DNA of 32,873 nucleotides from an uncultured Anaerolineales bacterium (GTDB taxonomy: Bacteria > Chloroflexota > Anaerolineae > Anaerolineales > UBA4823), in contig CAIQJJ010000147.1 of assembly GCA_903872065.1 (NCBI GenBank), positions 1 through 32,873 of the forward strand, given 5' to 3'. The translations under genes were made by a program, and so were the position numbers. The notes beneath the pieces are model-generated. The model was not told the DNA's origin. It saw only the letters and a list, made by a program, of their open reading frames with translations, and did not search any database. Shown in pieces: positions 11,550-15,393 of this stretch (position 1 is the first letter of the stretch; each line of letters begins with the position of its first letter).

Positions 11550-12122
11550 TTAAGTTGCAGCGCGGCGGCGCAGTTCGGTCTCGAAGATATCCACCGTAGG
11601 CTGGTCAAAATTGGTCAGGCGGATCTGGCGCAGCGAGCTGTGCGGATACTGCGCGCAGAAATCGAGCGCGGTCTGAATAAAAATAGCGGCGCAGCGGTCT
11701 TTGGGAAAGCCAAAGATGCCGCTGCTGATCGCCGGCATGGCGATACTTTCGATCTTCAGTTCATCAGCTTTGAGCAGGCTGTTCCAGACTGCCCGGCGCA
11801 GCAGTTCATCCTCACCCTGATCCCCTCCTTGCCAGACCGGCCCTACAGCATGAATAACGAATCGGCAGGGCAGTTTGCCGGCCGTCGTCAGCGCCGCCTG
11901 CCCGGTAGGAACACTGCCATGTTCGCGCACCCAACGAGCGCTTTCCTCCTGGATGACCCAGCCGCCGCGCCGCACAATCGCCGCCGCCACGCCGCCGCCG
12001 TGCGCCAGGTGCGAATTGGCGGCGTTCACGATCGCATCTACTTCCTCCTGCGTCAGATCGCCGCGCCGGATTTGAATGACTTGCCCGGAGGGGGCAGTTA
12101 ATTCAGCTTTGAGCAGACTCAT
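11550..12122 (-). CDS. Macro-domain protein (MacroD-like ADP-ribose/O-acetyl-ADP-ribose hydrolase)
   Basis: This single-domain protein of 190 residues binds ADP-ribose. It shows GDLTQEEVDAIVNAANSHL, whose Asp and Asn line the adenosine pocket. The GGGVAAAI loop follows, then HAVGP and the late PAISSGIFGFP loop that holds the distal ribose. These are the features of MacroD/YmdB-type enzymes, which hydrolyse O-acetyl-ADP-ribose and remove mono-ADP-ribose from proteins. The ATG at 12122 lies inside the end of the methyltransferase gene (20-bp overlap), with AGAGGA some 11 nt upstream; an ATG at 12155 is less likely. The overlap means it is translated from the restriction-modification transcript. 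No ADP-ribosyltransferase such as DarT is visible nearby, so a toxin-antitoxin role has no direct support. Its GC looks closer to the cell-wall genes than to the methyltransferase. Confidence 0.9.
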   Translation of the reverse strand: MSLLKAELTAPSGQVIQIRRGDLTQEEVDAIVNAANSHLAHGGGVAAAIVRRGGWVIQEESARWVREHGSVPTGQAALTTAGKLPCRFVIHAVGPVWQGGDQGEDELLRRAVWNSLLKADELKIESIAMPAISSGIFGFPKDRCAAIFIQTALDFCAQYPHSSLRQIRLTNFDQPTVDIFETELRRRAAT

Positions 12123-13359
12123 TGATTCTGTGATCCTCTTCAGCAATGGAAACATCGGCCGCCATGCGTTTTTGTTTTGCCTGAAGCCACTGGTTGATAG
12201 TTAGATCATAAGCATCTATCACCAACACATCCTCATCCGCCATCCAGTCATCGAACAGCGAAAGTTCAGTCTCTTTTTGGGTGCGCACTAAGATCATTGC
12301 AATACAGTGCTTGGTTTTACTGGCTGCAACCAATTTTCGTCTGGCGACGCTCAAACTCTCCCCAGGCTGTTGGATGCGCACAGACACCGGACGGTTATTC
12401 AGGTAAAACTTCAACAGGCCATCAATACCTTGATTCCGTTCAACCGGAATCGCGTCGAGCGCCTTGAGAAGCCCCCTTTCGTAATCCGTCTTGTCAAGAA
12501 AGCTTTCCTCGCCAACAGCAAAAACTTGTGAAAAACTTTTGACAGGTTCCTGTAAGCGCTTTTGTGATAATTCGACAGCATCTGGCGATAGATCGATGCC
12601 AATAAAATTGCGTCCGAGAAGCCGGGCTGCGACCAGAGTCGTACCACTGCCACAAAATGGGTCGAGAACGCAGTCGCCAGACTCTGTAGCGATTTCAAGG
12701 ATACGCTCTAACAAAAGGATCGGTTTCTGGGTGGGGTAGCCAACTCTTTCCCTGGCTTTCGGATTGAGAAAAGGAATATTCCACACATCCGCCAAAGGGA
12801 CGCCTCGCTTTTCGCCAGCAAAAACCACATGTCCATTTTCATCACGACGGTAAGCAGCCTTTCCCGCCTCATTGCGCATTCTGGCTTGCAAAATTTGGTC
12901 AACATTTGTGGTTGGCGAATAGTCCGTAAAGAGAATATTGAACTTAAAATCACTTGTCTTGCTGTAAAAATAAATCGTCTGGTGAGAATTCAACAATCCC
13001 TTTTTGGCATTCGACCACCTTTTATAAGTCCAAATAATCTCGCTTTGGAAGAATTCACATCCAAAGACGTTATCCAGAAGAAGGCGCAGGTGATGCGAAG
13101 CCGTTTTATCACAATGCAAGAAGATACTGCCAGTAGGTTTCAACACCTTGTGACATTCGCTCAAAACATCTCGCATGAAGACCAGGTATTCAGCCAAAGA
13201 CGCCCAATGATCCTCAAATGTAAATTCCGCCATATTGTCTCTGGCAGCCAAAGAATGCGTCTTTTGGGTGAAAAAAGGCGGGTCGAGATAGACAAGGTCC
13301 ACACTTGCCGAAGGGATGCTCTTCATGATCTCTCGGCAGTCGCCTAGCAGTACGGTCAT
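12103..13359 (-). CDS. Type II DNA methyltransferase (beta-class amino-methyltransferase)
   Basis: This 418-residue methyltransferase transfers a methyl group from SAM to an exocyclic amino group in DNA. The catalytic motif DPPF (26-29) precedes the SAM-binding motif VLDPFCGSGTTLVAA (231-245), which is the beta-class order. GYPTQKPILLLERI (208-221) is the conserved motif X region. A C-terminal extension (about 276-418) does not belong to the catalytic core and may help recognise DNA. Its start overlaps the stop of the restriction gene (ATGA), so the two form one operon. By context it should protect the site cut by that enzyme, probably GTGCAC. Whether it makes N6-methyladenine or N4-methylcytosine cannot be decided; both bases occur in that site. 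Hand-counted GC in a sampled line is 48%, against about 67% in the sampled flavoenzyme line. Confidence 0.92.
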   Translation of the reverse strand: MTVLLGDCREIMKSIPSASVDLVYLDPPFFTQKTHSLAARDNMAEFTFEDHWASLAEYLVFMRDVLSECHKVLKPTGSIFLHCDKTASHHLRLLLDNVFGCEFFQSEIIWTYKRWSNAKKGLLNSHQTIYFYSKTSDFKFNILFTDYSPTTNVDQILQARMRNEAGKAAYRRDENGHVVFAGEKRGVPLADVWNIPFLNPKARERVGYPTQKPILLLERILEIATESGDCVLDPFCGSGTTLVAARLLGRNFIGIDLSPDAVELSQKRLQEPVKSFSQVFAVGEESFLDKTDYERGLLKALDAIPVERNQGIDGLLKFYLNNRPVSVRIQQPGESLSVARRKLVAASKTKHCIAMILVRTQKETELSLFDDWMADEDVLVIDAYDLTINQWLQAKQKRMAADVSIAEEDHRINESAQS

Positions 13360-13985
13360 AGGTTCTCCCGGCGTAAATTTTCAGCCGCAATCTGGCGCAA
13401 AATTGCTTGCAAATCAACTCCTGTCCGCGTCAGTACATATTCCCAGGCATCTCGACCAATGTAACATTGTCCACCAACCCCCGCATAAACTGTTTTGATG
13501 GTTTCTTGCACCTTAATCGCCTGTTCGCGATTTGGAGAGTAAAACATTACCCGAACTGGCGTAAAACCATGCTGACGGATAACTTTAATGCGAGTGTGTT
13601 CTTTCGTAATGTGATCGCCATCCGTGGTTGCATCACGCCACTTAATTTCTATTGCATCGTTTTCAACCAGGCAGTCAATCTCAAATTGTTTCGGCCTATA
13701 GCCACTTGTATTTGGAATGCGTTGACGACTCGCTGCCGGGTATTTTGCCATAAAGCAAAGAAACGTTGCCTCTTCAAGAAATGCGCCAGCGTAATTATAC
13801 AGAAAACGCCCTTTGTTTTGATAGATGTCAATCAGCCGACCTTCTTGATCTGTCACAGCGAGAGCCTGATAGATCAAAGAATGAGATCGATCATCTGTCT
13901 GCATTTCCCTTAAGCGGACATCTACTTGCTCATGCAATTTTTGGGCATAGGTTGCAGCCAAGTGGCGAATTTTGTCTTCAATCAT
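13356..13985 (-). CDS. Type II restriction endonuclease, ApaLI-like
   Basis: This 209-residue protein carries a PD-(D/E)xK nuclease core: D104 in FEIDCLVEND, then E113 and K115 in AIEIKWRDATTDGDH. E71 and E72 (GAFLEEATF) may also contribute. The phrases NKGRFLYNYAG and EIKWRDATTDGDHITKEH match what I recall of the ApaLI family, whose founder cuts G/TGCAC. This is recognition from memory, not a search result. It sits directly upstream of, and overlaps by 4 bp, a DNA methyltransferase, as expected for a restriction-modification pair. No controller (C) protein gene is present. Sampled lines have about 42-48% GC, well below the neighbours, which suggests acquisition by transfer. A GGAG lies 8 nt before the ATG. 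It appears intact, with no frameshift seen. Confidence 0.8.
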   Translation of the reverse strand: MIEDKIRHLAATYAQKLHEQVDVRLREMQTDDRSHSLIYQALAVTDQEGRLIDIYQNKGRFLYNYAGAFLEEATFLCFMAKYPAASRQRIPNTSGYRPKQFEIDCLVENDAIEIKWRDATTDGDHITKEHTRIKVIRQHGFTPVRVMFYSPNREQAIKVQETIKTVYAGVGGQCYIGRDAWEYVLTRTGVDLQAILRQIAAENLRRENL

Positions 13986-14674: not shown

Positions 14675-14768
14675 AGAGAACCTCCAGTTTGATGAGAAAG
14701 GGATATCGTTGTGAGGACAAGAGTCCGGATAATTAGATGCAAGATCGCCTCGCAGGTGACAAAACAAG

Positions 14769-14774
14769 TATAAT
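14769..14774 (+). promoter_or_regulatory. Candidate -10 box (TATAAT) for the AMMECR1 gene
   Basis: A perfect TATAAT lies 43 nt before the ATG at 14818, in the divergent gap shared with the rhodanese gene. No convincing -35 hexamer is seen at 16-18 bp. The predicted leader includes the AGGTAAG ribosome site. Confidence 0.45.
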
Positions 14775-14817
14775 CGCCTTATCGCTGATTAATTCATTGT
14801 GTCTCTCAGGTAAGTTT

Positions 14818-15393
14818 ATGAACCCTACCGATTCTCTTACACCACAAGAACGTCAACTGCTGCTCACTATCGCGCGGCAGTCGTTGGAAGCCGGCGTCCG
14901 CCGCCAGCCGCTGCCCGACCTGAACACTTTCCCGCTGACGCCGCTGCTCAAAGAGCCAGGCGCATCCTTCGTCACGTTGACTGTCCACGGCAATCTGCGC
15001 GGCTGCATCGGCGCGCTGGAACCCTACCAGCCTTTGGCCGAGGATGTGCGCGAACACGCTGTTGCGGCCGCGCTGGATGACTACCGGTTCACACCGGTGC
15101 AGCCGAAAGAACTTCCCGACATTGCCATCGAAGTCTCGCGTCTTACCTTGCCGCAGCCTCTGGTCTACCAATCATCCGCAGACCTGGTACGGCGCTTACG
15201 TCCCGGCATAGATGGCGTGATCTTGCGCGACGGCATGCGCCGCGCCACATTCTTGCCCCAGGTATGGGAAAAAATCCCCGATCCGGCCACTTTTCTCAGC
15301 TACCTGTGCGAGAAGATGGGCGCGCCGCTCAATCTATGGCAGCGCAAAAAGCTGGAAGTGCTGATCTACCAGGTCGAAGAATTTCACGAATGA
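14818..15393 (+). CDS. AMMECR1-domain protein (AmmeMemoRadiSam system protein A-like)
   Basis: This protein of 191 residues consists of one AMMECR1 domain. The hallmark LRGCIGALEPY lies at 60-70, with the conserved cysteine C63. ALDDYRFTPVQPKEL and IEVSRL follow, then GVILRDGMRRATFLPQVW and FLSYLCEKMG, all in the usual order. The family's biochemical function is unproven; it is often found with a MEMO1 protein and a radical SAM enzyme, neither of which is in this window. The ATG at 14818 is chosen because AGGTAAG lies just before it; the open frame runs back to 14737 but without a ribosome site. It is monocistronic, and its stop lies 12 bp from the stop of the convergent PII-like gene. Confidence 0.92.
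   Translation: MNPTDSLTPQERQLLLTIARQSLEAGVRRQPLPDLNTFPLTPLLKEPGASFVTLTVHGNLRGCIGALEPYQPLAEDVREHAVAAALDDYRFTPVQPKELPDIAIEVSRLTLPQPLVYQSSADLVRRLRPGIDGVILRDGMRRATFLPQVWEKIPDPATFLSYLCEKMGAPLNLWQRKKLEVLIYQVEEFHE

Follow-up and report, generated by a model that had tools for sequence, protein, structure and literature searches.

The locus and its two enzymes

The window analysed here is the whole 32,873-nucleotide stretch of contig CAIQJJ010000147.1, from an uncultured Anaerolineales bacterium, in which a restriction-modification (R-M) gene pair had been predicted from the letters alone between positions 12103 and 13985. Such a pair is indeed present, with both open reading frames full length and on the minus strand (Table 1). 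The endonuclease gene lies upstream, and the four bases 13356–13359 are common to its end and to the beginning of the methylase gene, whose start is placed inside the endonuclease stop; the two genes are probably co-transcribed. As in type II R-M systems, endonuclease and methylase are encoded by separate, adjoining genes, and both enzymes look intact.

Table 1. Features of the R-M locus in the window
Feature	Length	Positions	Strand	Basis
ApaLI-family type II restriction endonuclease	209 aa	13356–13985	-	PF09499 match
Beta-class amino DNA methyltransferase	418 aa	12103–13359	-	PF01555 match
C-terminal domain of the methylase	about residues 285–418	12103–12519	-	Alignments and model
Macro-domain (ADP-ribose-binding) gene		11550–12155	-	

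The endonuclease matches the Pfam family PF09499 (RE_ApaLI) with 317.2 bits (E 4.6e-95) over model positions 2–188 of 189, exceeding the curated cut-off of 25 bits, and this match together with the intact active-site residues bears out the original assignment of the enzyme to the ApaLI family. Three residues, D104, E113 and K115 (FEID...EIK), are unchanged in an alignment of 38 homologues and would form the PD-(D/E)XK active site. Searching solved structures with the endonuclease sequence gave no match, and neither did Foldseek alone with the AlphaFold2 model (pLDDT 92.8) at E 0.001. The predicted structure resembles EcoO109I from end to end (Z 10.8, rmsd 4.2, 193 residues aligned), as well as PspGI and other PD-(D/E)XK enzymes; the likeness to EcoO109I is one of fold, since the sequence identity is 11% and the recognition site of that enzyme (RGGNCCY) is different.

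The methylase matches PF01555 (N6_N4_Mtase) over residues 20–267 (E 5.1e-56), and its motif IV (DPPF) precedes motif I (LDPFCGSGTT, residues 232–241), which is the beta-class order. Residues D26, P27 and P28 are unchanged in the methylase alignment and F29 is nearly so. Its closest solved structures include CcrM and RsrI by sequence and are CcrM, M.BceJIV and MboIIA by fold, and we infer an enzyme of the N6-adenine rather than the N4C type. CcrM and M.RsrI, both beta-class N6-adenine methylases, share the catalytic domain and motif order of the window methylase, whereas their C-terminal domain is unlike its own and their target is presumably different too. This C-terminal domain contains an unchanged N-x-GID and Q330 in the alignments and is ordered alpha-beta-beta-beta-alpha-beta in the model. 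A Pfam search with the C-terminal domain of the window methylase returned no match; in the same domain of one homologue, Mrr_cat was found below threshold (E 0.08). It is possibly a degenerate PD-(D/E)XK-like domain or a DNA-recognition domain.

Distribution, partner methylase and age of the pair

Scanning one-per-species genomes gave 260 relatives of the endonuclease, and the best 80 of these were examined. They span Chloroflexota, Campylobacterota, Gammaproteobacteria, Planctomycetota, Cyanobacteria, Bacillota and others, and in 79 of the 80 loci the endonuclease gene is immediately followed, on the same strand, by a homologue of the window methylase; the contig of the remaining one ends just past the endonuclease. 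A motif screen of the neighbourhoods of these best 80 relatives found no C5-methylase-like ORF. Endonuclease identity among most carriers is 58–71%, with conserved blocks. The 6-kb Psychrobacter plasmid pA40P2 (NZ_MN657091) encodes an ApaLI-family endonuclease and a DNA methyltransferase in the same order and strand as in the window, with about 55–58% identity for the endonuclease and about 52% for the methylase; it differs in that the pair is plasmid-borne and in the longer N-terminus of its endonuclease (264 aa).

The founder of the family, ApaLI from Acetobacter pasteurianus (G^TGCAC), is related to the window endonuclease by common membership of PF09499, a likeness of family and not of direct alignment. 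Its partner M.ApaLI, which Xu et al. in 1998 are said to have described as a C5-cytosine methylase, differs in class from the beta-class amino-methyltransferase of the window. The description of the locus as an ApaLI-like pair is thus right for the endonuclease and wrong for the methylase, which is of the PF01555 amino type and not a C5-cytosine enzyme as the founder's partner reportedly is. The GTGCAC site of ApaLI has been confirmed, and DNA of the phage Xp12, which contains 5mC, resists this enzyme (PMC7653180).

A shortened PF09499 gene of about 166 aa is found on a Paucilactobacillus plasmid (L005:3995–4492), near a Tn3-family transposase, and no methylase was found beside it; it is probably a decaying copy. 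The existence of this truncated copy indicates that decay occurs in the PF09499 family, so that the window pair might likewise be an inactive remnant; this reading is very improbable, with both genes at full length, the catalytic motifs in place and a tight four-base overlap between them.

The base composition of the pair differs from that of its surroundings. GC content is 0.45–0.47 in the endonuclease and methylase genes against 0.55 in the window, and third-position GC is 0.40–0.50 in the two genes against about 0.59–0.69 in neighbouring genes. Additionally, PF09499 has a patchy distribution (3 of the 301 genomes of the order), and because of this and of the AT-richer genes the pair was likely acquired recently. 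The macro-domain gene, which overlaps the end of the methylase gene, has a GC content of 0.62, unlike the restriction genes; since it is GC-rich and has relatives in 26 of the 38 genomes of the family, it is probably resident DNA adjoining the inserted pair. In the relatives, the macro-domain gene and the gene at 14737–15393 that flank the pair are separated by several hundred kb or do not share a contig, and since they are not neighbours there the insertion is not datable by synteny.

GTGCAC in the window, the host genome and other carriers

The original prediction had reported, from a scan by eye, that GTGCAC is absent from the window, and counting gives the same result (0 occurrences); the flanking hexamers and pentamer had also been estimated accurately, the plus strand having 14 CTGCAC, 10 TTGCAC, 7 ATGCAC and 22 GTGCA. 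How improbable the absence appears depends on the expectation. Dinucleotide shuffles give 8.3 occurrences (sd 2.8; P(0) 0.0002), a maximal-order Markov model 4.5 (P(0) 0.011) and 4-mers 3.3 (P(0) 0.037), and at the rate of the host genome itself (312 GTGCAC in 7,488,114 bases) the window would be expected to contain 1.4 (P(0)=0.25). Nine other 6-base palindromes are absent as well, which makes ten in all. The absence is real but unremarkable.

Across the genome, the 312 occurrences compare with 752–1,281 expected from Markov models of order 3 to 4, that is, an observed/expected ratio of 0.24–0.42; these expectations were derived from a 541-kb sample of the host genome, and part of the first contig batch in that sample was picked for carrying GTGCAC, so that a slight bias is possible. 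GTGCAC is therefore below its expected frequency genome-wide, and the expected frequency that would have spoken against restriction pressure was not observed. Its compositional bias, a measure known from the restriction-site literature, is about 0.40, with 0.78 taken as the mark of under-representation. Of the 64 palindromes in the host genome, 25 lie below this mark. GTGCAC is the 11th most depleted of the 64 by compositional bias, and the Markov models place it 10th to 24th. Depletion is much stronger for CATATG, GTCGAC and CAGCTG than for GTGCAC (observed/expected about 0.07–0.18, maximal-order Markov), which suggests other restriction systems, past or present, in the host genome.

Among the 38 genomes of the family, the host is second lowest in both GTGCAC density and GTGCAC/CACGTG ratio, and the lowest (G128) has no PF09499 match. 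Outside the family, the order has non-carriers with far fewer GTGCAC, 14–22 per genome; five of these (G212, G087, G025, G299 and G023), in which no PF09499 gene was found, have 14–20. GTGCAC is depleted weakly or not at all in the other two carriers of the order (0.61–0.88 of the Markov expectation in G031 and 0.76–1.05 in G117). The absence from the window consequently says little, because GTGCAC is uncommon genome-wide, about ten palindromes are avoided more and non-carrier relatives can avoid it to an equal or greater degree. A site missing from a 33-kb window should be read as restriction pressure only after comparison with its rate in the genome, with the other palindromes and with relatives that lack the system.

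It had been proposed that the absence reflects long-term pressure by an active enzyme, in other words that this locus drove GTGCAC down over a long residence. The compositional bias of GTGCAC is 0.81–0.85 in G106 and G054, two non-carriers sampled from the family, so the value of the host is low beside theirs, and its position as second lowest of the family points the same way. This interpretation of the absence is nevertheless not sustained by the rank of GTGCAC among the palindromes, by the still lower density in the non-carrier G128 and by the weak depletion in G031 and G117, and the AT-rich genes and patchy distribution suggest a recent arrival. Long residence of an active system is therefore rather unlikely, though it is the least unlikely of the rival readings. 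According to Rusinov et al. (PMC4687349), about half of the orthodox type II systems go with site avoidance, systems of recent acquisition leave less of it, and it can also be the mark of a system since lost.

Whether strongly depleted non-carriers keep the same methylase without the endonuclease was also considered and rejected, since the closest cases are 36–42% identical and in the catalytic domain only. Two inspected methylases of non-carriers (L230 in G025 and L234 in G128, about 40% identical in the catalytic domain) adjoin an OmpR-type response-regulator gene, and with this neighbour and the identity confined to the catalytic domain they appear to belong to another system. No PF09499 gene was found in either genome, and the methylase may be a conserved chromosomal one that stands alone.

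Forty-nine carriers with counts, from many phyla, have between 2 and 1,121 GTGCAC per genome. A GTGCAC/CACGTG ratio below 0.1 is seen in 6 of these 49 and in 5 of the 301 genomes of the order (Fisher p 0.0015), a comparison that mixes phyla and uses CACGTG as a crude control; the larger share among carriers hints that GTGCAC is the target of the PF09499 family. Those extreme carriers that were sampled have lost many other palindromes as well. The very wide range among carriers would also fit an endonuclease that has moved by drift to another, related site, with a GTGCAC deficit unrelated to it, as would the fact that GTGCAC is not top-ranked among the depleted palindromes of the host. Such a drift is improbable, more so than long residence, given that most carriers retain the identity and conserved blocks described above and that some are nearly free of GTGCAC. 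The 49 carriers are a usable set for testing site avoidance against residence time, an effect reported in PMC4687349.

Proposed function of the pair

With high probability, the locus is an orthodox type II R-M system that was horizontally acquired. The ApaLI-family endonuclease, of the PD-(D/E)XK type, would most likely cut unmodified GTGCAC in incoming DNA, and the amino-methyltransferase would protect the host copy, most likely by m6A methylation of the single adenine in each strand of the site (GTGCm6AC). The pair is probably functional. Its family membership, catalytic residues, conserved gene order, patchy distribution and deviant composition are observed, whereas its activity, its target sequence and the methylated base are predictions. 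GTGCAC specificity is likely by family; the absence from the window does not establish it, and the depletion of the site bears on it indirectly, being confined neither to this motif nor to carriers. Many palindromes are avoided across the host genome, and its low GTGCAC would be part of this pattern; the R-M system may have a share in it, causation not being demonstrable.

The pair is an ordinary member of an already known R-M family. It is a tentative suggestion, and a doubtful one, that endonucleases of the ApaLI family have had methylase partners of two unrelated classes. The founder would work with a C5-cytosine enzyme, and the widespread clade to which the window pair belongs with an amino-methylase, whose C-terminal domain may recognise the target by means of a dead PD-(D/E)XK fold. 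If true, one class of methylase would have been exchanged for the other while the target site was conserved.

Distant relatives of PF09499, with about 30% identity and about 100 bits to the Pfam model, also occur on viral contigs (L213–L228). No relative of the window methylase was found beside them, and comparison of these proteins with PHROGs families gave no match. One of them (L217:3965–4600) is located among ORFs resembling T4-type phage genes.
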